A DNA stretch of 64,000 nt from Gammaproteobacteria bacterium (GTDB taxonomy: Bacteria; Pseudomonadota; Gammaproteobacteria; Pseudomonadales; Pseudohongiellaceae): NCBI GenBank assembly GCA_030831165.1, contig JAURLP010000012.1, forward strand, positions 62,001-126,000. Reading direction: 5' to 3'. Made by a program: the position numbers and the translations under genes. The notes beneath the pieces were generated by a model. That model made no database searches, was not told the DNA's origin, and saw only the letters and a list, made by a program, of their open reading frames with translations. Shown piece after piece: positions 24,049-50,120 of this stretch; position 1 is the stretch's first letter; every line of letters begins with the position of its first letter.

Positions 24049-25023
24049 GTGAGAATAAAGCCCGAGATTATGATTTTCACAAAACAAAAAGCCGCAATTT
24101 TTCTTGTATTAATTCTCAATCTTAGTTTTTCCATCTATGCCCAAGACTATCCCGTTGATACCATAACCATTCTGACACACTCAAGACCTGGCGGCGGAAG
24201 CGATGTATTTCTTCGTGAATTATCACGCTATCTGGGGCCTGAATTGGGCGCAAATATTATTGTTAAAAATGTCACAGGTGGGTCCGGTGCCAGCGCAATT
24301 GCTGAATTGGCCAGAGCGAAGCCTGATGGTTCAAAATTCTACGCAACGACACCAACGTTTATCTATACCTCCTTACTTTCTCAACCGGCCTATACCTATC
24401 AGGATGTTGATCCATTGGTTAATCTGTTTTTTGATCCTGAATTGATTTACACCGCAGCTAACAGTCCATTTCAAACTCTGGAAGATGTACTCAACAAAGC
24501 TAGAAGCTCTCGAGGTCTCTGGGGTGCAGCGAATCCTGGCTCTATGGAAAGACAATCATTAGAGCAATTGAAACTGGCTACCGGTCTGAATGCCGCAGTC
24601 ATAAGTCATGAAGGTGGAGGGGATTTAATAATCAATGTCCTCAATGGCACTTTGGATATCGGTGTTGGTGAAGCTCAGGAATTGCAATCTCAAATAGAAG
24701 CAGGAAGCTTGCGTATTCTGGCTACATTAAGTGATACGCGTTTGGCTCAGTTTCCTGAAATTCCAACGGTGCAGGAATTGGGCTATGAAGTGGTCGTTCG
24801 CAAGTTCAGGGGCATTGCAGCCCCGAAAGGTTTAGCACCTGAATTAATTCTTCGATGGGAGCAAGCTATCCAAAGCGTTCTAGAAAATCCTGACTATCAG
24901 GCGTCTTACCTTGCTGACAATTTAAGACTAAATTACATCAATCATGCTGATTACCAGGGATTCATTGATGATTTTGCACTAGAAACACAAAGCTACCTGA
25001 GAAGAGTCGGTATTATTGAATAA
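24049..25023 (+). CDS. Tripartite tricarboxylate transporter substrate-binding protein (TctC-like)
   Basis: A 324-residue periplasmic solute-binding protein of the Bug/TctC family. A signal peptide is visible (hydrophobic AAIFLVLILNLSFSIYA, then QDYP). Family signatures are THSRPGGGSDVFLREL, GGSGASAIAELARAKPDG and FRGIAAPKGL. GTG 24049 follows GAGAGATAA; ATG 24070 is an alternative start that leaves the signal peptide intact. These proteins bind carboxylates such as citrate or dicarboxylates; the actual ligand is unknown. It is followed by the two membrane subunits. Confidence 0.9.
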   Translation: MRIKPEIMIFTKQKAAIFLVLILNLSFSIYAQDYPVDTITILTHSRPGGGSDVFLRELSRYLGPELGANIIVKNVTGGSGASAIAELARAKPDGSKFYATTPTFIYTSLLSQPAYTYQDVDPLVNLFFDPELIYTAANSPFQTLEDVLNKARSSRGLWGAANPGSMERQSLEQLKLATGLNAAVISHEGGGDLIINVLNGTLDIGVGEAQELQSQIEAGSLRILATLSDTRLAQFPEIPTVQELGYEVVVRKFRGIAAPKGLAPELILRWEQAIQSVLENPDYQASYLADNLRLNYINHADYQGFIDDFALETQSYLRRVGIIE

Positions 25024-25096
25024 GTTAAACATTTCATTAGCACAGAGCTTTTGATGCTGCATAGTTTGTGCTTGTTGATTGGAAAAGAGGGCTGAT

Positions 25097-25570
25097 ATGT
25101 TGTCCAGAGATTTTGTTGGTGGATTAGTTGCTATAGCCTTGGGCAGTCTGTATCTGATTTTTTCATTCAGACAGAGGGTAAGTGCTCTGGCGGACACTAT
25201 CGGTCCGGCAGGCATACCTAAAGTGCTGGGTATTCTGATGTTGTCTTTAGGCATCATACTTTGCGCTCAGGCTATCTTTCAAACCCGTAAATCCGTTGTG
25301 CCAGCAGCAACAGAATGGGATGGCGAAGCCAGAAAAATCTTTCGCGCATTCGGTCTGGTTGTTATTGGTGTGATATATATCTTCATGCTGACATTTCTCG
25401 GTTATGTGTTATCGATCGCGCTTTTACTTGTAGCCGTTGCCTTTTATTTAGGCGCAGCCTTTAACTTGCGAATGATACTTATTGCAGCAGCAGGCGCCGT
25501 ATTACTCTGGACGATATTTGTGATCTTACTGGGAGTGCCTATGCCTGCTGGAATTTTTTCTCAGGGCTAA
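25097..25570 (+). CDS. Tripartite tricarboxylate transporter small membrane subunit (TctB-like)
   Basis: A 157-residue protein with four hydrophobic helices and the family opening RDFVGGLVAIALGSLYL. ATG 25097 is preferred because AAGAGG lies 10 bases before it; an in-frame TTG at 25079 would add six residues. The stop is one base before tctA. TctB associates with TctA in the membrane. Confidence 0.85.
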   Translation: MLSRDFVGGLVAIALGSLYLIFSFRQRVSALADTIGPAGIPKVLGILMLSLGIILCAQAIFQTRKSVVPAATEWDGEARKIFRAFGLVVIGVIYIFMLTFLGYVLSIALLLVAVAFYLGAAFNLRMILIAAAGAVLLWTIFVILLGVPMPAGIFSQG

Positions 25571-25571
25571 T

Positions 25572-27080
25572 ATGGACGCGATACTCACTTCACTGGCTAA
25601 TCTGGAATTTTATTTAGTATTAGCTGCAGTGCTGGGTGTTGCCTGGGGCATAGTTGGAGGGGCTCTGCCTGGCATATCTCCTTCAATTACTATGGCTTTG
25701 TTGCTACCTTTCACCTACGCCCTGGAGCCATCCATAGCCATTGTCTTATTGGCCTCCACTTATGTGGGTGCAGAATATGGAGGATCGATACCCGCCATTC
25801 TTATCCGCACACCAGGTACCAATGCTGCCGCAGCCTCGGTTATTGATGGTTATGAAATGAACAAACAGGGCAAGGCTGGTCTTGCTCTGGGCATATCATT
25901 GTATTCGGGTGTGATTGGGAGCCTGGTAGGCTTGTCAGCTCTGGTCTTATTCAGTGAGCCACTGGCTAGGCTTGCGCTGGCATTCACTCCCCCAGCTTAT
26001 TTTGCCTTAGGCATACTCGGCCTGAGCGTTATTGTCAGTTTATCTGGGGAGTCACTGGTAAAAGGGCTCATTGCAGCTTTACTTGGGCTGATGATTTCCA
26101 CCATAGGGACGGATCCTGTTTCTGGCATAAGCCGTTTTACTTTTGGGGTTTCCGACCTCTTATCAGGCATTCAGCCCATCCTGATCATGGTGGGTTTATT
26201 TGCCATGAGTGAATTATTGAAACAGGCTTCGGCACAATATGAAATAAGACTAAAGACTATTCCTAGAATCCAGTTTCCTGATAATAAACTTAAAAAAAGA
26301 TTGATTCTGCCGCAGTGTATAGGTGCTTTATTTGGCGGATTTGAAGGTCTTATGCCCGGTGCTGGTGGAACAATTGCTTCCTTTATGTCATACAACGAAG
26401 CCAAAAGGTGGTCTAAGTCAAAGCATGAGTTTGGCAAGGGTTCACCGGAAGGGATCGCTGCGCCGGAAACGGCCAATAATACTGTCGCAGAAACATCGCT
26501 TATTCCAATGTTGAGTTTTGGAATCCCCGGGTCTAATTCCACGGCAATTTTGTTAGGTGGGTTTCTGATTCACGGACTGATCCCAGGACCTATGTTATTT
26601 GCTCGTTCAGGCGATATTGTAGGGGATTTATATGTCGGTCTGTTTTTTGCCGCGATTGCTTTACTTTTTATTGGCATTGCAATTATGCCGGCGTGTATCT
26701 GGTTAGTGAATCAGCCGAGACCTTATCTTAATGCCTTTATTATGGTCTTAATTATGTCGGGTATTTATTCGATTAATAACAGTCTGTTTGAGCTTTCAGT
26801 TGTATTGGTAGCAGGCATAATTGGTTATTTTATGAGATTACTAAGATTTCCATTTCTACCCACCGTTCTGGGCCTGGTGCTTGGCTTCATGATTGAAAGT
26901 AACTTTCGCAGATCATTATTGTTGTCCGGAGATGAGTTAAGCATATTTTTCAATGACAGAATTTCCCTGGTGCTTTTATCTGTTGCAGTATTATTTATTA
27001 TTGGCTCGCTAGCCAAGCGTTTCATAGGTTTTCTGTTTACTAAGCTAAAAAGTAAATTTGCTGAAAATACCGGTCGTTAA
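25572..27080 (+). CDS. Tripartite tricarboxylate transporter large permease (TctA-like)
   Basis: A 502-residue permease with about 12 helices that carries the solute across the inner membrane using an ion gradient. Hallmarks are GGALPGISPSITMALLLPFTY, YVGAEYGGSIPAILIRTPGT and GLMPGAGGTIASFMSYNEAKR plus GKGSPEGIAAPETANN. It completes a TctCBA set together with the two genes upstream, and metabolic genes follow after 11 bases, suggesting one transport-and-catabolism operon. Confidence 0.93.
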   Translation: MDAILTSLANLEFYLVLAAVLGVAWGIVGGALPGISPSITMALLLPFTYALEPSIAIVLLASTYVGAEYGGSIPAILIRTPGTNAAAASVIDGYEMNKQGKAGLALGISLYSGVIGSLVGLSALVLFSEPLARLALAFTPPAYFALGILGLSVIVSLSGESLVKGLIAALLGLMISTIGTDPVSGISRFTFGVSDLLSGIQPILIMVGLFAMSELLKQASAQYEIRLKTIPRIQFPDNKLKKRLILPQCIGALFGGFEGLMPGAGGTIASFMSYNEAKRWSKSKHEFGKGSPEGIAAPETANNTVAETSLIPMLSFGIPGSNSTAILLGGFLIHGLIPGPMLFARSGDIVGDLYVGLFFAAIALLFIGIAIMPACIWLVNQPRPYLNAFIMVLIMSGIYSINNSLFELSVVLVAGIIGYFMRLLRFPFLPTVLGLVLGFMIESNFRRSLLLSGDELSIFFNDRISLVLLSVAVLFIIGSLAKRFIGFLFTKLKSKFAENTGR

Positions 27081-27091
27081 AAGGAGACTTC

Positions 27092-28459
27092 ATGATTGAA
27101 GAAAGTATTGCCCAGAGGCTTGGTAATTGGGGTGAGAAGCTAGAGCCTGCAAGTTTGCCCAAAACAACTCTGGAAAAAAATGGGGATATCTTGCTTGATA
27201 TCGTTGGCTTGTGCATAGCCTCACGCAATAAAGACTACGTTCAGGCAGTGATTGAGGCTTCGGAGCCAGGAGAGCACACTCTCATCGGCCATAGCCTGAG
27301 AACATCAGCCGCTAGTGCTGCAATCATTAATGGTACTGCAGCTCATGGTGAAGATTTTGATGATACTTTTGAAGGTGGACCTGTCCATTCCGGCGTAGTC
27401 ATGGTGCCCGCCATGCTTGCAGCAGCTGAACGCTATCAGTTGAGTTCGGCAGATACCATGTTAGGACTTGCTGCTGGCAATGAAATTCTTTGTCGTCTTG
27501 CTCTAACCTTGCCTAAAGCTATCCATAAGTCAGGATTTCATCCTACCGCAGTACTGGGGTCTTTCGCGGCGGCCTTCGGAATAGCCGTGGCCTGTAAAGC
27601 AGACAGCAGGATCATTGCCAACGCCCTAGGGATTGCCGGCAGCATGGCTTCAGGGATAATAGAATATTTGGGCGATGGCAGCTGGACCAAGCGCATGCAT
27701 CCCGGTTGGGCCGCTCAATCCGGTTTGCGGGCATTTGCCATGGCCAAGGCCGGATTCAAGGGGCCTAAATTTGTCTTTGAAGGGGAGCATGGGGCTTTCA
27801 AGGTCTTTGCTTCATCGGTGGATCCCAAACTGGACTGTCTGTTTGACAAGCTCGGACAGCAATATGTCAGTGATGCAATTTCATTCAAGCCTTATCCCTG
27901 CGGCACCATGATCCAGCCCTACATCGATTGTGCCCGACATCTCAGGGAACAAGGAATTAATGTCAGTAATATTGAATCAATTCTTTGTGAAACCGCAGAA
28001 GGTTATGTGCACAGACTGTGGGAGCCAAAGGCAATAAAGAGCGCGCCACCCAGCTCATATGCAGCCAAATTCAGCGTGCCTTTCGGGGTTGCTCTGGGTC
28101 TATTGCGAGGGCATGCCAATCTTGGTGACTATAATGAAGAATCTATTACTGAACCTGATTTGTTGAACATTGCTGCGAAGGTCAATTACGAAATTGATTT
28201 GAACAATCCTTATCCGGCAGCCTTTACCGGGCACGTCAGGTTATTGTTCAAAGACGGCTCTCATAAAGAAGTTAGGCAGGGATTTATGCGTGGCGGACGA
28301 GATTCGCCGCTTAGCCAGAATGAAATAAACGAAAAATTTTACGCTAATTCCCAATATGGCGGACATTCTGATCCGGATAAATTACTGGCCATTTGCAGGG
28401 CCATTGCCACGATGCAATCAGACTATCAATTAATCCGAGAAATGGGGGAGACTGAATGA
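27092..28459 (+). CDS. MmgE/PrpD family protein
   Basis: A 455-residue cytoplasmic protein of the MmgE/PrpD fold. Typical segments are NGTAAHGEDFDDTFEGGPVHSG, SGFHPTAVLGSFAAA, KRMHPGWAAQSG and SFKPYPCGTMIQPYIDC. Members include 2-methylcitrate dehydratase, cis-aconitate decarboxylase and iminodisuccinate epimerase; which reaction occurs here cannot be told. Start ATG 27092 follows AAAGGAGA at 27079-27086. Its last four bases overlap the SDR start. The neighbouring TctCBA transporter suggests a tricarboxylate-like substrate. Confidence 0.86.
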   Translation: MIEESIAQRLGNWGEKLEPASLPKTTLEKNGDILLDIVGLCIASRNKDYVQAVIEASEPGEHTLIGHSLRTSAASAAIINGTAAHGEDFDDTFEGGPVHSGVVMVPAMLAAAERYQLSSADTMLGLAAGNEILCRLALTLPKAIHKSGFHPTAVLGSFAAAFGIAVACKADSRIIANALGIAGSMASGIIEYLGDGSWTKRMHPGWAAQSGLRAFAMAKAGFKGPKFVFEGEHGAFKVFASSVDPKLDCLFDKLGQQYVSDAISFKPYPCGTMIQPYIDCARHLREQGINVSNIESILCETAEGYVHRLWEPKAIKSAPPSSYAAKFSVPFGVALGLLRGHANLGDYNEESITEPDLLNIAAKVNYEIDLNNPYPAAFTGHVRLLFKDGSHKEVRQGFMRGGRDSPLSQNEINEKFYANSQYGGHSDPDKLLAICRAIATMQSDYQLIREMGETE

Positions 28460-34671: not shown

Positions 34672-35088
34672 TCCAAACTTATCAGGCGAATTTATAGCCG
34701 GGATAATTCACTAAGTTCAGACTGGGCCCGAGATCTGGATAAATGCCGATTTCAAAAAGGCTCTCGCGATGAATGCAATCAGTCTTGCGGCGCCATAAAA
34801 TGTCAATCTGGCCATGTAGATTTCCTTTATACCAAAGCACAACAAGTTTATAGTGCTTAACCAATAATAAAAACCTGATTTTATTTACTGACCCAAGTAG
34901 CTCAGAAGTAATAACAAGCCTACTAGTTGCATATCGTATTGGCGACCCACAGACAGAAACTGGAGAAGGGCGTGTTTCTAAAGGTTGTCATCATGCTTCC
35001 CCCTTTATATGAATCTTGTTTATATCGGAACAATAGATAATAATCATTCGCTTATTGATGATTGTTTAACTCAACAGGGGATCAAAAA
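34672..35088. other. Intergenic region between yghU and the LPMO-like gene
   Basis: These 417 bases hold no gene with a start codon. A start-less frame continuing from yghU runs to TAA 34858-34860 and contains a Cys cluster. Further on, 35035-35055 is AT-rich with a weak resemblance to a Fur box (about 12 of 19 positions), which I do not regard as convincing. Confidence 0.4.
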
Positions 35089-35688
35089 GTGAAAAATAGC
35101 TTACTCAAAAAAATCAGCCTAGCTGCAGCTATCGGCCTGGTAGCGACAACGGCACATGCACATTTCAAACTGAACTCTCCAGATTCCTGGATAGAAGAAA
35201 ATGAAAGAGGTGATCCTCAGAAAATAGCGCCCTGTGGTGGCACCTTGGCTGATGGTGGTACCAGAACAGGTGCTGTGACCGCTATTAGTGGCGGACAAAT
35301 GCTGACGATTGAGCTTGAGGAAACCATTTATCATCCAGGGCATTACCGCGTTGCTTTGGCAAGAACCATAAACATGCTGCCAGCTGACGCTATGCCCCTG
35401 GTGATGGTTGATACTGAACGTGGACCACGTTCGGGTCGTTTCCCGATTACAGAGAATCCTGTGGCGCCTATACTAGCCGATGGCTTACTGGAGAATTATG
35501 AACGTCGAACCGGACCAATAAGCACAGAAGTTAGGATTCCTAATATCGATTGTGAAAACTGTGTCTTACAAATAGTCCAGTTCATGTCTGAGCACCCCGG
35601 GCATGGTGAAGGGGGTTTTACTTACCACCATTGTGCCATACTAAATATTAGCGCTGACACCGATATGCCGATAAATACAAACTGGTAA
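35089..35688 (+). CDS. Exported LPMO-like protein with N-terminal copper-site histidine
   Basis: A 199-residue protein. GTG 35089 is chosen because AGGGGA lies seven bases upstream and a signal peptide follows directly (LAAAIGLVATTAHA). Predicted cleavage leaves His25 as residue 1 (HFKLNSPDSW), the defining feature of lytic polysaccharide monooxygenases and the copper-binding X325/BIM1-like proteins. His82 and His85 (YHPGHYRVAL) could supply the second copper ligand. Four or more Cys (PCGG, DCENC, HHC) suggest disulfides. It looks like the SCE4755-type polysaccharide monooxygenase-like proteins; whether it oxidises sugars or only binds copper is open. Confidence 0.7.
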   Translation: MKNSLLKKISLAAAIGLVATTAHAHFKLNSPDSWIEENERGDPQKIAPCGGTLADGGTRTGAVTAISGGQMLTIELEETIYHPGHYRVALARTINMLPADAMPLVMVDTERGPRSGRFPITENPVAPILADGLLENYERRTGPISTEVRIPNIDCENCVLQIVQFMSEHPGHGEGGFTYHHCAILNISADTDMPINTNW

Positions 35689-35751: not shown

Positions 35752-36585
35752 ATGACTATAAATAACAGTAGTAAAACCGGCTTAATCCTGTTGTTAGCGA
35801 CTATGGTGCTGGTCATTCCGGCACAGGCTCAAATCGATTTATCAGGCGAATGGGCTGCTGTTTTCCATGAAGACTTTGATGAACGCAGGCCCGGTCCCGA
35901 AATGGTGGAATATCAGGGTATTCCCATTAATGAGGCTGCCCGGCGCCGGGCATTGAGCTGGAGCCCCTCATTACTCACTTTACCCGAGCATCAGTGCAAA
36001 CCGCACCCTTCTGACTACGGTAGCCGTGGGCCAAGCAATATGCGCATATGGAAGGAAATTGATTCTGAATCCCAGCAGTTAATCGCTTACCATACCCGTA
36101 TTCGCTGGCAAGCGCCTGAAAGAACCATCTGGATGGATGGGCGTGAACACCCGCCAGAACATGCTGCTCATACCTGGCAAGGTTTTTCTACAGGACACTG
36201 GGAAGGTAATGTTCTTGTTGTGAGGACGACCCATTTAAAACAAGGCTGGGCGCGTCGTAATGGTGTCGCTCGAAGTGATCTTGCCGAATTCACTGAGCAT
36301 TTTTTCAGACATGGGGATTACATGACCCAGGTCGTTATTGTGAATGACCCGGTTTATCTGACAGAGCCATTTATTCGAACCAACAACTGGAAAATAGACC
36401 TTTTTCAGCAGATCCCACCTTATTTGTGTGAAACCGTGACCGAAATAGATCGGCCACAGGGAGAAGTTCCCCATTATTTACCTGGTCAAAACCCGTTTAT
36501 GGGTGAGCATGCAGAACGCTACAACCTTCCTATTGAAGGTGTTTTGGGTGGTGCGCAGACCATGTACCCATCATTTATTGAATAA
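35752..36585 (+). CDS. Exported protein of unrecognised family (paralogue of 37663-38355)
   Basis: A 277-residue protein with a signal peptide (LILLLATMVLVIPAQA) and start ATG 35752 after GGAG. The mature part opens with IDLSGEWAAVFHEDF. The core motifs are HTWQGFSTGHWEGNVLVV, TTHLKQGWARRNGV and EHFFRHGDYMTQVVIVNDP followed by YLTEPF. The downstream protein at 37663 has the same motifs in the same order, so this is a family, though I know no function for it. Many aromatic residues and a likely beta-rich fold suggest a binding protein. An MBL hydrolase gene follows 50 bases later. Confidence 0.75.
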   Translation: MTINNSSKTGLILLLATMVLVIPAQAQIDLSGEWAAVFHEDFDERRPGPEMVEYQGIPINEAARRRALSWSPSLLTLPEHQCKPHPSDYGSRGPSNMRIWKEIDSESQQLIAYHTRIRWQAPERTIWMDGREHPPEHAAHTWQGFSTGHWEGNVLVVRTTHLKQGWARRNGVARSDLAEFTEHFFRHGDYMTQVVIVNDPVYLTEPFIRTNNWKIDLFQQIPPYLCETVTEIDRPQGEVPHYLPGQNPFMGEHAERYNLPIEGVLGGAQTMYPSFIE

Positions 36586-36635
36586 TTATTGGTGATCTGA
36601 CTTTAAAAAAGTTATGACTATTGTAGGAGTTAGAT

Positions 36636-37613
36636 ATGTCCATCCAATTGGATAGATTCATAAAAAGGGTAAGCACAAGCTTGTCTTTTTGTTTGCTACT
36701 GTTTCCCACCATCAGTGTCGCTCAGCAAAATTTTGATGATGTTGAAATACAGGCGCTTCATGTCCAGGGCAATATTTATATGCTGGTTGGCGCCGGCGGG
36801 AATATTACCCTGCAGGCTGGAGAGCAGGGGGTGTTGATTGTCGATACGATGTTTGCCCCTCTGAGTGATAAAATTTTCGCCGCTATTCGTAGTATCAGTG
36901 AAAAGCCTATTACCTATATTATTAATACTCATGCTCATTCCGACCACATTGGCGGCAATGCTAATCTGGCCTTGATGGGTAGTAATATTGCAGGTGGCAA
37001 CACTATTGATCTTTTTGCAGGGACTGGCAATCAGGCAAAAGTAGTGGCTCATGAAAACGTGATGGCCAACATTCTGGTACAGGATAATCCAATTGCAATT
37101 GAAGGCTGGCCAACTGACACCTATTACACCCCCAAAAAGGATTTATTTTTCAACGGTGAAGCTATTATGATCACCCACCAACCGAATGCTCATACCGATG
37201 GCGACAGTCTGATCTTCTTTAGACGATCAGATGTAATCAGTGCTGGAGATATTTTTAATACCACCGGTTACCCTTATATTGATGTCGCCAACGGCGGTAC
37301 TTTACAGGGTGTTCTTGACGGTCTAAACAACATCTTAGATATGGCGGTTCCAGCAGACAGGCAGGAAGGTGGCACCATGATTATTCCGGGCCATGGTCGT
37401 TTATCCGATGAAGCAGATGTTCTGGATTACCGGGACATGTTAACTATTATTAGAGATCGAATTGCCTATCGCATAGATCAGGGAGACAGTTTGGTTCAAG
37501 TCTTGGCTTCGGAACCAACATACGATTACGATGTTAGATATGGTGCTGACTCTGGCTTCTGGACAACCAGGCAGTTTGTAGAAACTGTCTATAACGAACT
37601 AAGCGCCCAATAA
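36636..37613 (+). CDS. Exported metallo-beta-lactamase-fold hydrolase (copy A)
   Basis: A 325-residue protein with a signal peptide (SLSFCLLLFPTISVAQ). The zinc site is complete: HAHSDH at residues 99-104, a further His in QPNAHTDGDS, Asp in SAGDIFNT and His in IIPGHGRL. The start of the fold reads VYMLVGAGGN-like (NIYMLVGAGGNITL). It is closest in the window to the MBL protein at 38387. The substrate is unknown; such exported members hydrolyse esters, lactones, sulfates or beta-lactams. It forms a pair with the unrecognised protein upstream. Confidence 0.86.
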   Translation: MSIQLDRFIKRVSTSLSFCLLLFPTISVAQQNFDDVEIQALHVQGNIYMLVGAGGNITLQAGEQGVLIVDTMFAPLSDKIFAAIRSISEKPITYIINTHAHSDHIGGNANLALMGSNIAGGNTIDLFAGTGNQAKVVAHENVMANILVQDNPIAIEGWPTDTYYTPKKDLFFNGEAIMITHQPNAHTDGDSLIFFRRSDVISAGDIFNTTGYPYIDVANGGTLQGVLDGLNNILDMAVPADRQEGGTMIIPGHGRLSDEADVLDYRDMLTIIRDRIAYRIDQGDSLVQVLASEPTYDYDVRYGADSGFWTTRQFVETVYNELSAQ

Positions 37614-37662
37614 AACGCAAGATTATAGCTAAGAAACCATGATCAACTGAAATGAGAACTCT

Positions 37663-38355
37663 ATGAACTTGAGAAAAATATATCTTCCTTTAGCCGCAGC
37701 AGGTGTAGTTTTTAGCTCTTTTAGCTTCGCTCAAGAGGAGAGGGTATCTCCTAGAGGTGTGGCACCAATAGAGCTAAGTGGTAATTGGACTACAGTGATT
37801 ACTGAAGACTGGCGCTGGCGTATGGTTACTCCACCAAAAGGCGATTATGTGAGCCTTCCCTTGAATGAGGAAGGGATCCGAGTGGCAAACATGTGGAACC
37901 CGACTGACAACGGTGATAGCTGCAAAGCTTATGGCGCTGGCAATATTATGCGCATGCCTATACGGCTTAATATAAGCTGGGAAGATGAAGATACCCTGTT
38001 GCTGGAAACTGATCACGGCATGCAAACCCGACGATTTCATTTTAATGCTCAAGATGAAATGTCGGGCGAGCCAAGTCTGCAGGGTGATTCCTTTGCACAA
38101 TGGGAAGGTGCTAGTCTAAAAGTCGTGACACGCAACCTGACAGCTGGTTACATTCGTCGAAATGGTGTTCCCTATAGTGAAAATGCGGTAGTAACTGAAT
38201 ATTTTGACCGACACGATGTTTATGGCGATCAGTGGTTTACTGTCTCCGTTATTGTCGAGGACCCTCAGTATCTGACGGAACCCTATTATACGAGTTCCAG
38301 TTTTAAACGCCTGCCTGATGACAGTAAATGGAATCCTGTAAGCTGCGAGGATTGA
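37663..38355 (+). CDS. Exported protein of unrecognised family (paralogue of 35752-36585)
   Basis: A 230-residue protein with a signal peptide ending FSFAQ. It shares with the 35752 protein the opening IELSGNWTTVITEDW, the core QWEGASLKVVTRNLTAGYIRRNGV (given here as two adjoining motifs, QWEGASLKVV and TAGYIRRNGV), and a C-terminal EYFDRHDVYG…VIVEDPQYLTEPYY. It lacks the C-terminal 45 residues of the longer copy. It is followed by a second MBL gene, so the pair is duplicated in tandem. Function unknown. Confidence 0.74.
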   Translation: MNLRKIYLPLAAAGVVFSSFSFAQEERVSPRGVAPIELSGNWTTVITEDWRWRMVTPPKGDYVSLPLNEEGIRVANMWNPTDNGDSCKAYGAGNIMRMPIRLNISWEDEDTLLLETDHGMQTRRFHFNAQDEMSGEPSLQGDSFAQWEGASLKVVTRNLTAGYIRRNGVPYSENAVVTEYFDRHDVYGDQWFTVSVIVEDPQYLTEPYYTSSSFKRLPDDSKWNPVSCED

Positions 38356-38386
38356 TATCCGTAATTTTGCAAAACGAGATTGGCTT

Positions 38387-39289
38387 ATGATTAAACAAAT
38401 AATATTCATTTTCCTGTTGGGTTTTAGCCTACCTCTGTATGCACAGGATTTTTCCGGAGTTCAGATAGAAAGTGTTCGTATCGATGATAACTTTTATGTG
38501 CTTTATGGATCTGGTGGAAATATTGGGGTATTTACAGGTGAAGATGGCCTGATAATGATCGATACTCAATATGCACCATTATCTGGGCGTATTGCTGATG
38601 CTATCGCCCGTATTAGTGGAGATAACATTAAATTCGTTATAAACACCCATTGGCATGGTGACCATACTGGCGGCAATGAAAACTTTAATGCTGATGGCGC
38701 CGTCATTGTTGCACATGAATATGTGAAGCGCCGTATGAGCATGGAAGTATTCTTGCCACTTTATAACAGTCGTGTCATGCCATCACCAATTGGCGCTCTA
38801 CCGACAGTGACCTTTATGGAAAATATTAGCTTTCACTCGGGTAATGAAAGCTTGAAGGTCATTCATGCGCCCAATGCTCATACTGATACCGATGCTTTCG
38901 TGCATTTTGAACAGGCCAATATCATACATATGGGCGACCTGCTTTGGACTGGCAGCTATCCGCGTATAGATGTACAACATGGCGGTGGATCAGTTCAGGG
39001 CGTTATCAGTGCAGTGGAGCAAGCCCTGGCTCTGGCTGATGGTGATACACAATTTATTTCCGGTCATGGAGTAATCCCGGAGAAAGGCACGGCTTATGTT
39101 GAAAGCTATTTGGCTATGCTCCATGCTGTGAGTAATCGTGTTGCTGGAATGATTGAGCAAGGAATGTCTCAGCAGCAAATAATAGCGGCGCGACCAACAG
39201 CCGAATTTGATGCTGAGTTTCTAGGTGATAATGCCTATATCGATGCTGATATGTTTAGCAGAATTGTTTATATCAGCTTGTCAAAATAA
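38387..39289 (+). CDS. Exported metallo-beta-lactamase-fold hydrolase (copy B)
   Basis: A 300-residue protein with a signal peptide (IIFIFLLGFSLPLYAQ). Zinc ligands are HWHGDH at residues 88-93, His in APNAHTDTDA, Asp in HMGDLLW and His in FISGHGVI. NFYVLYGSGGNIGVF and ITYIINTH-like strands align with copy A, so the two arose by duplication. Copy B keeps Trp in the HxHxDH motif where copy A has Ala, hinting at different substrates. Twenty bases separate it from the NTF2-like gene. Confidence 0.86.
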   Translation: MIKQIIFIFLLGFSLPLYAQDFSGVQIESVRIDDNFYVLYGSGGNIGVFTGEDGLIMIDTQYAPLSGRIADAIARISGDNIKFVINTHWHGDHTGGNENFNADGAVIVAHEYVKRRMSMEVFLPLYNSRVMPSPIGALPTVTFMENISFHSGNESLKVIHAPNAHTDTDAFVHFEQANIIHMGDLLWTGSYPRIDVQHGGGSVQGVISAVEQALALADGDTQFISGHGVIPEKGTAYVESYLAMLHAVSNRVAGMIEQGMSQQQIIAARPTAEFDAEFLGDNAYIDADMFSRIVYISLSK

Positions 39290-39309
39290 AAATAAAACTG
39301 GTGATCCTT

Positions 39310-39831
39310 ATGAAAAACATGGCACTGAGAATCAGCAATATTCCGGTAGCAATCCTGCTGGTATTGATTTCATTATTTACTTACCAAAATCTGAGTGCAC
39401 AGGACCAATCAGAGCAAGCAATTAACAAACAGTTACTGCTGGATTTTTTTGCGTTTCAGGGCACAGATATAGAACGTATGGAGCAATATATGGCTGAAGA
39501 TTATGTTCAGCATAATCCCAGGTTTCTGGCGATGGATAAATTCACAGGCGCTAGTGGTAATCGTGCCTGGGTCGAAGCCCGGATAGAGGCTCGTGAAAGA
39601 GGCGGCATTCCACTGGTAGATCTTGGTGGTATAAGACTTTCAAACCCTATTATCGTGATGGCAGAAGATGATTTGGTCACCGCTATTTATAAAGGCGATT
39701 TGCCTGACCCTGATAATCCGGGGGAAACCTATGAAGCCTTTGCCTTTGAAACTTTTCGCGTCAATAATGGAAAGTTTACGGAGCATTGGGATCAGGTGAC
39801 TCTGAAAGAAGGCTGGATGGATGTAGAGTAA
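39310..39831 (+). CDS. Exported NTF2/SnoaL-like protein
   Basis: A 173-residue protein with a signal peptide (IPVAILLVLISLFTYQNLSA) and a SnoaL-like alpha+beta fold: LLLDFFAFQGTDIERMEQYMAEDYVQHNP, shown as positions about 40-68, then YEAFAFETFRVNNGKFTEHWD. Relatives are cyclases, isomerases or ligand-binding proteins with a deep pocket. ATG 39310 is preferred over an in-frame GTG at 39301 because GGTGAT lies just upstream. It is in the middle of the MBL cluster, probably co-transcribed. Confidence 0.78.
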   Translation: MKNMALRISNIPVAILLVLISLFTYQNLSAQDQSEQAINKQLLLDFFAFQGTDIERMEQYMAEDYVQHNPRFLAMDKFTGASGNRAWVEARIEARERGGIPLVDLGGIRLSNPIIVMAEDDLVTAIYKGDLPDPDNPGETYEAFAFETFRVNNGKFTEHWDQVTLKEGWMDVE

Positions 39832-39874: not shown

Positions 39875-41365
39875 ATGACTTTTCGAAAAATTATAAAACT
39901 TGTAAGTGTGTGCTATATCGTAATAAGCGCTTTGCCTGTGTCAGCTCAGATGATGTCTGCACAATCTGTGTTGGAGGATGCTGCTGAAGCAATGGGCGGA
40001 TTGGATCGTATTCGCGGTGTCGATAGCTTATTGATGACAGGCTTCAGCCAAACACTCAATCAGGATGGAGGCTCCTCGTCTTCATCACATCCAAAGGCGC
40101 CCAAAAAATGGGCAGCTCAAAATGATGTTGAACGCTATTTCGATCTTGATGACTTAAGTGCCTACCAAACCCATCGACAAGGTTTTTTATTTCCTTTTGC
40201 CTTGGCTTTTGGCCATTCTTGGGCACCAAGCAGTCAGCTGCAAGAGGGTGCAAACGCTCTGAACCACCCTTTAATGGCGTTGAGAGCAGCTTTAGCAAGT
40301 AGTACTGAGTTGGGTGCTGTCAGTATTGAAGACGATAATATCGTGGTTGAATTCACACTGGCCGACGATACTGTGTTATGGCTAGGCATCAACCAACTCA
40401 ATAAATTGCCTGCATGGGTTCGCTGGATGGGGGCGCATGCCAATCTTGGTCAGGTTACTTATACAACCTGGTTTACGGGTTATGTCCCCTTTGATGGTGT
40501 CAGACTGCCAAACGGTTTTACCACCGAGATTGACTGGCGTGAGAATGTTGTCAGTGTATTTCATGTTGACTCCTATGAGCTGGATGTTGAATTGCCTGAG
40601 TTTGTAGCGGGTGGGGGTGGCTTTGGCGGGGGAGGCAGTCCCGATGTTGTTGTGACCGAAGTCGCAGATGGGGTCTGGGATTTAAGAGTCGGTAGCAATG
40701 GTGGAGCAGTTGTTGAATTTGAAGACCACTTATTAATGTTTGAAGTCTATGGCAATGAAGCGAATTCTCTGGCGCGAATTGATGTGGCTAACACCCTCGT
40801 GCCAGGCAAAGAAGTGACCCAGGTTATATTGTCGCATCACCATTTTGATCACTCTGGGGGGATTCGAGCTGCTGTTTCCAGAGGACTAACTATTATCTCC
40901 AAGCGTGAAAACGAAGGCATTTTAAGAGAAATGGTCTCACGCCCAGCTCCTAATTTCCCCGACGCACTGGCTCGTAATCCACAACCGCTGCATTTTATCC
41001 CGGTTGATGAGCATTTGGTTTTAGAAGATGCCATGAGACGAGTCGATGTCTATGAAGTAATAGGTCATATGCATATGACAGATGCTGTTTTTGCCTATAT
41101 CCCAGAAGAAAGAATATTAATGCAGGGTGATATGTTCGATATTGGCTGGGATTGGCATTGGTGGGGTGGAAACTATATGGATAGCGTTGAGCATTTCAAC
41201 CTTGATCCTATCACTGATATTCCTGTCCATGGCCGGGTCAGCACTCTGGAGGAAGTCATCACCAATATTGGAAGTCAGGTGAGTGCGGCCAGAGAATTTT
41301 GCGCCAGAGACCTGGCTATTGGTGTTTATATGGCAGGCTGCCCGGTCAAGTATAGCCGAGATTAA
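39875..41365 (+). CDS. Exported two-domain protein: N-terminal unknown domain + MBL-fold domain (copy C)
   Basis: A 496-residue protein. After a signal peptide (ending PVSAQ), residues 30-240 form a domain opening SVLEDAAEAMGGLDRIRGVD, seen again in the 48618 protein. A Gly-rich linker (246-255) follows, then an MBL domain with HHHFDH at 321-326, His in IGHMHMTD, Asp in LMQGDMFD and His in IPVHGRVS. The N domain resembles outer-membrane lipoprotein-carrier-like sheets in feel, but I cannot prove that. It starts 43 bases after the NTF2-like gene. Confidence 0.84.
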   Translation: MTFRKIIKLVSVCYIVISALPVSAQMMSAQSVLEDAAEAMGGLDRIRGVDSLLMTGFSQTLNQDGGSSSSSHPKAPKKWAAQNDVERYFDLDDLSAYQTHRQGFLFPFALAFGHSWAPSSQLQEGANALNHPLMALRAALASSTELGAVSIEDDNIVVEFTLADDTVLWLGINQLNKLPAWVRWMGAHANLGQVTYTTWFTGYVPFDGVRLPNGFTTEIDWRENVVSVFHVDSYELDVELPEFVAGGGGFGGGGSPDVVVTEVADGVWDLRVGSNGGAVVEFEDHLLMFEVYGNEANSLARIDVANTLVPGKEVTQVILSHHHFDHSGGIRAAVSRGLTIISKRENEGILREMVSRPAPNFPDALARNPQPLHFIPVDEHLVLEDAMRRVDVYEVIGHMHMTDAVFAYIPEERILMQGDMFDIGWDWHWWGGNYMDSVEHFNLDPITDIPVHGRVSTLEEVITNIGSQVSAAREFCARDLAIGVYMAGCPVKYSRD

Positions 41366-41399: not shown

Positions 41400-42815
41400 A
41401 TGTTAAGAAAAAGTCTGATTTTACTGAGTTCTACACTGGCAATGGTGTTAATTACAGCGACATCATATGCGCAGCTGTCAAATAACCCTTTTTCTGTTCC
41501 GATAGAAGCCGAGGAGGGGATCATAACGGTCAATGCTGTTGAGTTTGCTACTTTGCCTGATATCGACGGTGTTGCCGCTCGCATGATGCAGCTGATAGAT
41601 GAACCGGGCACTGGACGACTATTTGTGAATGATATGACTGGGCCAATTTACAGTGTCAGCTATGACGGACGGACTGTCATTGAGTACATTAACATCGATG
41701 ACTGGGGTGTTGATGTGTGGGCCAATGAATTTAGAGAAGGCGGGATGCAAAGTTTTGTATTTCATCCGCAATTTGGCCTTGCTGGCACAGCAGGCTATGG
41801 CAAATTCTATACCTGGACCGACAGTTCCAATAGAAGACCTCGACCAGATTTTATGCCCTCTGGCGATCTTGATGATCATGATCTCGTATTACATGAATGG
41901 ACCGCTAGCAACCCCATGAATGCCACCTATGATGGCGGCGCACCACGTGAAGTCATGCGTTTACAGCAACCCTATAGAAACCATAATGGCGGCCAAATAG
42001 GTTTTAACAGTCTGGCTTCACAAGGTGATGAGGATTATGGGCTATTATATGTTTCAGTAGGTGATGGCGGTTCCGGGGGCGATCCCTTGAGCATGGCGCA
42101 AAACTTGAACTCTATATTTGGTAAATTATTACGTATTGATCCATTGGGTAATAACAGTCTAAATGGTCAATATGGCATTCCTGCAAGCAACCCATTCGCC
42201 AATGATGGAGATAACAATACTCTGGGGGAAATCTATGCATATGGCATACGTAATGCCCAGCATTTCATCTGGGATTCTGCTAACGGCAATATGTTTATCT
42301 CTGATATTGGTCAGAATATTGTAGAGAAGATAAGTCTGATCAGCATTGGCGCAAATCTGGGTTGGAATACATGGGAAGCCAGCTATCGTTTTAGCGATGG
42401 TGTCGTCGATGTAGACAACCCACGCAGTGCGACTGGTATTACTTATCCCCTGGTGGAATGGGATCATAATGACCCTATACTTCAGGCTCGCTCAGCCGCC
42501 TCAGGTTTAGCAGTGTATCGTGACGATGAAATAAACCAACTGCAGGGCAAGCTCTTATTTGCCGATCTTCTAAGTGGCGAGATTTTCTATGTGGATGCAG
42601 ACAACTTGCCCGATGGTGGGCAGGACCCTATCCGTCGAGTGTTGTTGGATAATGGCACTGGGGCAAAAACACTGTTGCAACTCATTCAAGCAAAGAACCG
42701 AATGCAAGGGAAGGATCCTGCTCCTCGAGCAGATACACGGATTGATGAAGGTCATGACGGACAGCTATTCATTTTAAATAAGGGTGATGGCGTCATAAGA
42801 AAACTGGCTCCCTGA
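41400..42815 (+). CDS. Exported PQQ-dependent sugar dehydrogenase-like beta-propeller
   Basis: A 471-residue protein with a signal peptide (ILLSSTLAMVLITATSYAQ) and the glucose/sorbosone dehydrogenase fold. Recognisable pieces are HPQFGLAGTAGYGKFYTW, YRNHNGGQIGFNS, YVSVGDGGSGGDPLSMAQ, GKLLRIDPLG and YGIRNAQHFIWD. Soluble PQQ enzymes of this fold oxidise sugars in the periplasm. No PQQ synthesis genes are in the window. RBS AGAGG at 41389-41393. It ends the run of exported proteins starting at 35089. Confidence 0.86.
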   Translation: MLRKSLILLSSTLAMVLITATSYAQLSNNPFSVPIEAEEGIITVNAVEFATLPDIDGVAARMMQLIDEPGTGRLFVNDMTGPIYSVSYDGRTVIEYINIDDWGVDVWANEFREGGMQSFVFHPQFGLAGTAGYGKFYTWTDSSNRRPRPDFMPSGDLDDHDLVLHEWTASNPMNATYDGGAPREVMRLQQPYRNHNGGQIGFNSLASQGDEDYGLLYVSVGDGGSGGDPLSMAQNLNSIFGKLLRIDPLGNNSLNGQYGIPASNPFANDGDNNTLGEIYAYGIRNAQHFIWDSANGNMFISDIGQNIVEKISLISIGANLGWNTWEASYRFSDGVVDVDNPRSATGITYPLVEWDHNDPILQARSAASGLAVYRDDEINQLQGKLLFADLLSGEIFYVDADNLPDGGQDPIRRVLLDNGTGAKTLLQLIQAKNRMQGKDPAPRADTRIDEGHDGQLFILNKGDGVIRKLAP

Positions 42816-48471: not shown

Positions 48472-48617
48472 ATTTAGTCTTTATGCTCGCCATTCAATTC
48501 CAGTAATACTTGAATTTAGTTCACTTAACCCTATACTCAAATACCTGAAACCGATTATCTGCTTTTATCGGCCTTAATTTCACGACGACAACAAAGATAT
48601 CGATGGAGGTATCACTC

Positions 48618-50120
48618 ATGCGTAATGCTTTTATTATTTTATTTTCTGCACTGGCATTAGCAGCCTGTGCCGGAGAAGAGGAGATGGCAAGCTCCGTTCC
48701 CATGCCCGTCACCCCTGCAAGTGCTGATGAGGTTCTGGCTGACGTTCAAGCGGCCATGGGTACTGGCAATCTTTCTTCCATTTCTGTTTCAGGCGAAGCC
48801 TGGGCTATCAGAAATGGATTTCGTCAAACCCGTAAAGCCAGCCCTCCCTGGATATACCGTAACGAAGTTATGGACTATACCCGAACTATCGATCTTGATA
48901 ATTCCGCTTCTTTAGCAACAGGAGAGATATTTGCTCACAATCTTTTTTATGATCCGCCAACCTGGAGCAACTATTTGCAAAATATTCCAGCAACTCAGAG
49001 CGCCTGGGATCAGCAGCTGCAAATATGGCTGACTCCCTGGGGTTTTCTGCAAGGGGCCGAAGATAACGGCGTCTCAGTATCGATGAGTAATGGTCAAACG
49101 GTATTAAGCTGGATGTCGCCGGTTGATCAGACTTCCCCATCAGGCATGCGTTATACAGTAAATGCCTATATCAACGAAGACAATCTGATAGAGAAGACTG
49201 AAACCTGGGTTGAGGATGAATTTATGGGAGACATGCATGTGTCTGCCGTTTACCGTGACTATACAGAGATGGATGGAGTCATGGTGCCCGCCACTTCAGA
49301 GATATGGCAGGGTGGTGGCGCCATATTCGGTGTTGCAATTCGTGAAGCTGATGCTAATCCAGCTAATCTGGCAGAGCTGATTACACCTCCTCCTGCTGGT
49401 TCTGGTCGAGGTGGTCCCGGAGGCCCTCCAGGTGGCGGGGCGGCACCTAATCCGGCTGATATGATTAAAGAAGTTGCTCCTGGCGTGTATCACATCTCAA
49501 CAAATTACAACTCTTTGGCGGTTGAATTTGAGGATGGTTTCATTGTCTTTGAAAGTGGAGGTTTTCCTCCTCGCGCCAATGCCGGCATTATTATAGAAGC
49601 GATCGCCAGCGTTTCTGAAAAACCAATTAATGCTGTTATCAACTCCCACCCACACTCAGATCATACGCCCAGCCTGATCCCAATGGTGAATGCAGGTATT
49701 CCCTTGATTGTTAGTGAAAACAGTGTGGACTTTCTGCGCATGGCGTTGAGTACTCCAAGAACCCTCCTGGGTGAGGACACACTAAGCCCCGAATTTCAAA
49801 CAGTGCCCAATGAGGGCGTGATGGTCATAGAGGACTCCTTGAACCGTCTGGAAATTCATCATATCCCAAGCTTACACAGTGATTCGTTGCTGTTTGCTTA
49901 TTTACCCAATCATCGTCTGGCAATGCAGGCTGACTTTACCATAAGAGGCGATGCTGATGGGGGCACTCTGCCATATGAAAACCAAACACCACTAGGGCAA
50001 GAGTTTGCAGAGTATATTCGGGATAATGGCCTAGAATTCGATAACATGCTCGGGGTTCATAGCCCTGGATATACACAAAGTACTGAGGACGTATTTATGG
50101 CTCTTCCTCCAGGTAATTGA
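48618..50120 (+). CDS. MBL-fold lipoprotein with N-terminal unknown domain (copy D)
   Basis: A 500-residue protein. ATG 48618 follows GGAGGT and gives a lipoprotein signal with lipobox LAAC (Cys17), so it is probably membrane-anchored. Residues 35-255 match in layout the N-terminal domain of the 39875 protein (SADEVLADVQAAMGTGNLSS). A Gly/Pro-rich linker (260-275) leads to an MBL domain with HPHSDH (344-349), His in PSLHSDS, Asp in AMQADFT and His in GVHSPGYT. The usual GG after HxHxDH is TPS here, so substrate handling may differ. The function is unknown. Confidence 0.84.
   Translation: MRNAFIILFSALALAACAGEEEMASSVPMPVTPASADEVLADVQAAMGTGNLSSISVSGEAWAIRNGFRQTRKASPPWIYRNEVMDYTRTIDLDNSASLATGEIFAHNLFYDPPTWSNYLQNIPATQSAWDQQLQIWLTPWGFLQGAEDNGVSVSMSNGQTVLSWMSPVDQTSPSGMRYTVNAYINEDNLIEKTETWVEDEFMGDMHVSAVYRDYTEMDGVMVPATSEIWQGGGAIFGVAIREADANPANLAELITPPPAGSGRGGPGGPPGGGAAPNPADMIKEVAPGVYHISTNYNSLAVEFEDGFIVFESGGFPPRANAGIIIEAIASVSEKPINAVINSHPHSDHTPSLIPMVNAGIPLIVSENSVDFLRMALSTPRTLLGEDTLSPEFQTVPNEGVMVIEDSLNRLEIHHIPSLHSDSLLFAYLPNHRLAMQADFTIRGDADGGTLPYENQTPLGQEFAEYIRDNGLEFDNMLGVHSPGYTQSTEDVFMALPPGN

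Follow-up and report, generated by a model that had tools for sequence, protein, structure and literature searches.

The U1-M-U2 triad recurs as a unit within a 2.3 Mb gammaproteobacterial genome and in genomes of two phyla. Its three genes encode exported proteins; U1 and U2 belong to one unclassified family, and M has the metallo-beta-lactamase (MBL) fold. The order of the genes, its conservation across phyla, the duplication of the unit, the loss of zinc ligands from M under purifying selection and the linkage to aromatic catabolism genes were directly observed. The triad is tentatively read as a repeatedly duplicated export cassette that would deal, outside the cytoplasm, with small aromatic (phenolic) molecules, and whose ancestral zinc hydrolase repeatedly became a pseudoenzyme. 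We give this reading somewhat less than an even chance.

In the proposed mechanism, U1 and U2 would bind a phenolic molecule within their modeled calycin-like barrels, and the ancestral or intact M would hydrolyze an ester, lactone or similar bond. The product of M would then be handed on for uptake and subsequent ring cleavage in the cytoplasm. The zinc-less M may have no catalytic role and instead partner the barrels in binding or as a scaffold, and U1, M and U2 may form a physical complex. The phenolic nature of the substrate class is likewise putative.

The window operon and its predicted proteins

The window is the whole stretch of 64,000 nucleotides that was analyzed. Eight genes with small gaps are located on its + strand between positions 35062 and 42815, and signal-peptide-like N-termini were recognized by eye in all eight products. 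The four open reading frames described in the earlier note were found on this strand as U1 (35752-36585), M1 (36636-37613), U2 (37663-38355) and M2 (38387-39289), separated in turn by 50, 49 and 31 bases. U1 is preceded, across a 63-base gap, by the gene of a polysaccharide monooxygenase-like exported protein of the SCE4755 family (35062-35688; NF043005, 135.9 bits, cut-off 75), which is probably the first gene of the operon. M2 is followed in the same apparent operon by the genes of a SnoaL-like exported protein (39301-39831; PF12680 above cut-off), a third exported protein with an MBL domain and an extended N-terminus (39875-41365; PF00753), and, as the last gene, a glucose/sorbosone-dehydrogenase-like exported protein of the PQQ type (41400-42815; PF07995, 95.9 bits). 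The SCE4755-family, SnoaL-like and third MBL genes are kept in the loci L029-L031, and the dehydrogenase gene in L029 and L030. When this operon was scanned for promoters and terminators, the promoter-like count was lower than the shuffled mean.

The SCE4755-family protein is predicted to begin, once mature, with a His (AHA/HF), a trait of copper histidine-brace proteins. A fungal LPMO is driven by a PQQ-dependent pyranose dehydrogenase (PMC5960967). By analogy with this fungal precedent, and because they share one apparent operon, the SCE4755-family protein and the PQQ-type dehydrogenase of the window could be a redox couple. The third MBL protein (39875-41365) and another exported MBL protein at 48603-50120 share long N-terminal extensions and 25% mutual identity, and within the window they represent a second family of MBLs. 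The stretch 24049-28459 carries genes of a tripartite tricarboxylate transporter (TctC and TctA) and, after them, a gene of the MmgE/PrpD family (27092-28459).

The likeness between the two unknown proteins proposed in the earlier note was verified, as U1 and U2 are homologous with 35% identity (E 3e-23). Sequence searches of U1 and U2 against Pfam, NCBIfam, PHROGs and the PDB returned nothing convincing; neither protein had a Pfam or NCBIfam match over cut-off, and 100 relatives of U1 gave no convincing Pfam match. The AlphaFold models are confident, with a pLDDT of 91 for U1 and 88 for U2 (alignments of 100 and 63 sequences, respectively). The models were compared with the PDB via Foldseek. 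The top matches of U1 were almost all calycin barrels, including CRBP1, SAHS, FABP, UnaG and avidins, with a best E of 1.7e-3. The first match of U2 was a dinoflagellate luciferase domain (E 3.8e-3), followed by weak matches, mainly to avidins (from 1.3e-2) and lipocalins. The U1 model has helices between its first and second strands, and fatty-acid-binding proteins have helices at the same place. These comparisons weakly but consistently suggest that U1 and U2 are calycin ligand-binding barrels related to FABP, lipocalins and avidins; the assignment is suggestive because the Foldseek E values come only near 2e-3, with none at or below 1e-3. The predicted antiparallel barrel and, for U1, the FABP-like helix placement are shared with the calycin superfamily, but no sequence similarity to it was found. 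The suggestion that the unknown proteins are binding proteins thus fits the predicted barrels, which look like binders, and neither the searches nor the models pointed to a well-described family with an unrelated function.

M1 and M2 are homologous with 34% identity (E 3e-54). Their scores with PF00753 (Lactamase_B), 58 and 71 bits against a cut-off of 22.7, place both in the metallo-beta-lactamase superfamily. The full ligand set of HxHxDH, AHTD, GD and GHG is present in both, reading HHDHHDH over all seven positions (HAHSDH, AHTD, GDI and GHG in M1), in agreement with the zinc ligands noted earlier. The fold, the ligand motif and the extracytoplasmic location are like those of the SoxH-related or quinoprotein relay zinc metallohydrolases (TIGR04559) and the class B beta-lactamases, but M1 and M2 score 79 and 99 bits against the cut-off of 280 of TIGR04559 (quinoprotein relay zinc metallohydrolase 2), and the best lactamase models, those of the VarG family and of the class B core, gave 65 bits (cut-off 750) and 56 bits (cut-off 100). 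Unlike the members of these families, M is flanked by U1 and U2, and many M relatives are without zinc ligands.

Recurrence of the triad and loss of zinc ligands

Copies in the own genome were counted by searches with U1, M2 and U2 as queries, with the matches mapped on the retrieved stretches, and the loci were mapped by six-frame HMM maps. Ten complete triads, one of them ordered M-U2-U1, and one partial copy (M-U2, on a short contig) were found in the 2.3 Mb genome, together with two U1 genes that have no M and U2 (L010 and L013). Across the ten triads, U1, M and U2 give congruent distance matrices (Mantel r 0.89 for U1-M, 0.76 for U1-U2 and 0.64 for M-U2; permutation p 3e-4 or less). This congruence indicates that the triads were duplicated as whole units. 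The genome contains around 13 further U-family genes, mostly paired with DUF6152 (PF19649), which is also sometimes inserted into the cassette to give U1-M-DUF6152-U2. DUF6152 is a frequent fourth cassette member or a partner of other U-family genes.

The multiplication is shared by the sampled members of the genus, as each of the five species carries 9-12 copies of U1, in comparison with 0-3 per genome in two further genera of this family. When samples of the order and of the class were searched with an equally strict threshold, no U1 match was found beyond the own genome. On the genome contigs scanned, 526 relatives were found, the best of them in Gammaproteobacteria and Acidobacteriota. Outside the own genome, 63 U1 genes had 3 kb of downstream sequence. 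M follows within 400 bases in 41 of them and U2 lies within 3.5 kb in 40, often with DUF6152 in between; the full order U1-M-DUF6152-U2 is present in 13. The adjacency is therefore not unique to this genome; such uniqueness is what the earlier note had named as refuting its proposal. Its view that the two gene types belong together is supported by their adjacency across phyla and their congruent divergence among cassettes, and its view that the copies have diversified is supported as well.

Several further observations concern the surroundings of the cassettes. DUF6152 and a U-family domain are naturally fused at L019:7026-8117 and L028:5745-6833 in the own genome, and these two fusions support a physical link between both families. 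Homologous exported proteins of about 220 aa with an FFVTSxGxGxGGDLGG-like motif are encoded directly upstream of two cassettes (L018:10108-10758 and L017:6304-6984); the former has no Pfam or NCBIfam match. In Acidobacteriota, genes for DUF6644 membrane proteins are located directly downstream of U1-M-DUF6152-U2 (L072:6168-6674, and L062, L077, L080, L081 and L093).

The zinc motif is destroyed in eight of the 11 cassette MBLs of the own genome and intact in three (the window, L009 and L011). In place of THxHxDH, the eight broken proteins read THLDEAH, THLDPLH, TALDPLH, TSDDDQH, TSILPSH, TSIAAQH, TSVLPSH and TAVLPGH, and several have also lost a downstream His. Ligand loss is kept in the orthologous cassettes of sister species; for example, SAQHYDH or AAQHYDH is present in all five. 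On a tree of 103 MBLs built without the ligand columns, loss was found in 40 proteins and required at least ten state changes. The dN/dS of ligand-less M was around 0.06-0.10 (0.19 in one pair) and that of intact M was 0.05-0.09, with several of the dS values saturated; the cleanest pair, L012/L118, had a dS of 0.32 and a dN/dS of 0.10. Decay into pseudogenes was ruled out by the open frames, the sister-species conservation and the dN/dS. Judged by their sequences, the ligand-less cassette MBLs are conserved proteins in which the canonical two-zinc mechanism is impossible, and the zinc-less fold would instead serve binding, scaffolding or signaling. The hydrolase role proposed in the earlier note is weakened as a general role, as most cassette MBLs of the own genome are without catalytic metal ligands yet conserved.

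It is unlikely that all of these MBLs are still enzymes of a peripheral hydrolase system, with single-metal or other-metal sites and with the U proteins as enzyme subunits or chaperones. Five of the seven ligand positions are kept in the HDxHHDH and SDDHHDH groups, so that one metal could bind, and purifying selection is strong in all MBL groups. However, the first zinc site has disappeared entirely from the SLSHIDH and SAQHYDH groups, together with the Asp of the second site, a single ligand is left in the MBL of L016 (SLSHISR), and the U models resemble binding barrels.

Aromatic catabolism genes beside the cassettes

In the own genome, the cassette at L009 borders, in convergent orientation, a pnpDEF-pcaF hydroquinone cluster that encodes the hydroquinone dioxygenase PnpD (PF18191), an aldehyde dehydrogenase, an Fe-ADH, PcaF (above cut-off), a Rieske protein and Dabb. 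The Fe-ADH, for which there is no NCBIfam equivalog, is by our own reading of the maleylacetate-reductase type. In the pnp cluster of a sister species, PnpC-like, IclR-like and CoA-transferase (PcaIJ-like) genes were likewise assigned by our own reading of the translations, the PnpC-like and PcaIJ-like ones upstream. The linked genes are like those of the described pnpCDEFG or hydroquinone clusters, namely hydroquinone dioxygenase, semialdehyde dehydrogenase and maleylacetate reductase (PMC5603801, PMC3324391). The hydroquinone pathway itself is already known from these sources, and their abstracts do not name U and M among the described components.

U1 has PnpD as a neighbor in Acidobacteriota as well, and in a further three Gammaproteobacteria. 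The 31 carrier genomes contain ten PnpD genes, six of which lie inside the fetched U1 loci, a fraction of 0.44% of the sequence (binomial p 1.6e-12); two more also have U1 beside them, so that eight of the ten adjoin U1. At least eight of 36 HpaB-type monooxygenase genes are located in U1 loci (p 4e-12). Tannases and glyoxalase-fold (ring-cleaving) dioxygenase-like genes are each found near 12 of the 77 loci, which were chosen by likeness to the window U1, so that the neighbor counts in related Acidobacteriota are not independent. At L021:6036-14098 of the own genome, two DUF6152-U pairs lie immediately next to a cluster for homoprotocatechuate (hpaE, hpaF-like, hpaH and hpaI-like genes, with HpaE and HpaH above cut-off), and one cassette adjoins a 2-keto-4-pentenoate hydratase. 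In three cassettes adjacent to PnpD (L033, L034 and L066) the ligands of M are broken, which indicates that even these cassettes can do without canonical hydrolysis.

Within the own genome, a full ring-cleavage cluster adjoins one cassette only, in convergent orientation and not co-transcribed with it; most cassettes have unrelated neighbors. The window cassette has no aromatic gene beside it, and its operon joins the LPMO-like protein and the PQQ-type dehydrogenase with SnoaL and the third MBL. These features count against the phenolic reading. The unrelated neighbors and the pairing of the LPMO-like protein with the PQQ-type dehydrogenase would fit a module for polymer attack or detoxification unrelated to aromatic rings, with the aromatic linkage arising secondarily, from shared regulation or because entire clusters were transferred horizontally. 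This explanation is quite improbable, as such linkage is seen repeatedly in two phyla and with a variety of aromatic enzymes (PnpCD, glyoxalase-fold dioxygenase-like proteins and HpaB).

A divergent orientation toward PnpD or ring-cleavage genes is frequent among the cassettes, ten of the 77 far loci have AraC-type genes nearby, and the sister-species pnp cluster contains the IclR-like gene. This arrangement could be expected from a signaling module, in which the barrels and a ligand-less MBL sense a periplasmic aromatic and control the neighboring catabolic operon. Such a role is very unlikely, since the core triad consists of exported soluble proteins throughout, with no constant membrane kinase, anti-sigma factor or other transducer.

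Descent of the window genes and significance

In a tree of U proteins from the own and distant genomes, the U1-type and U2-type form two lineages, both of which are present in both phyla, and the types differ by a single change on the tree. The window U1 has 62-66% identity to the best acidobacterial U1 proteins, which is more than to its paralogues in the own genome (41-53%) or to U2. M1 clusters with the cassette MBLs of other genomes, and M2 and its orthologues stand outside all cassette MBLs on a long branch; the U and M trees were quick searches, and long branches are present in them. M2 is an added gene that is found in close relatives only. The tandem duplication of a two-gene module with divergence in substrate, as proposed in the earlier note, is hardly credible: the alternating order and the roughly 35% identity between copies would agree with it, but the AU tests rejected both U1 with U2 (p-AU 2e-56) and M1 with M2 (p-AU 1e-34) as sisters, and the recurring unit is the dispersed U1-M-U2 triad, not the pair.

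In the open-access literature, no paper was found for DUF6152 or SCE4755, and nothing relevant for operons of a lipocalin and an MBL. Neither the folds nor the idea that a catabolic cluster may include an accessory exported module is new. The open-access papers and family libraries searched do not describe the U1-M-U2 composition, its multiplication across a genome or the recurrent loss of the active site from the MBL. The family is named neither in Pfam, NCBIfam and the PDB nor in the open literature, in agreement with the earlier note, which knew of no described system with this composition.

This analysis characterizes a large unclassified protein family by its context, ties it to hydroquinone-type aromatic degradation in two phyla, and provides a lead on DUF6152, which often accompanies the cassette. 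The cassettes also supply a naturally graded set of MBL-fold proteins, some intact and some ligand-less, within operons that are otherwise alike, in which the loss of catalysis with retention of function is directly testable. With more reserve than for the export cassette itself, the triad may represent an exported three-component system shared across phyla, in which MBL-fold proteins repeatedly became non-catalytic partners of calycin-like barrels, and a 2.3 Mb genome may carry about eleven diversified units for the binding or sensing of aromatics.
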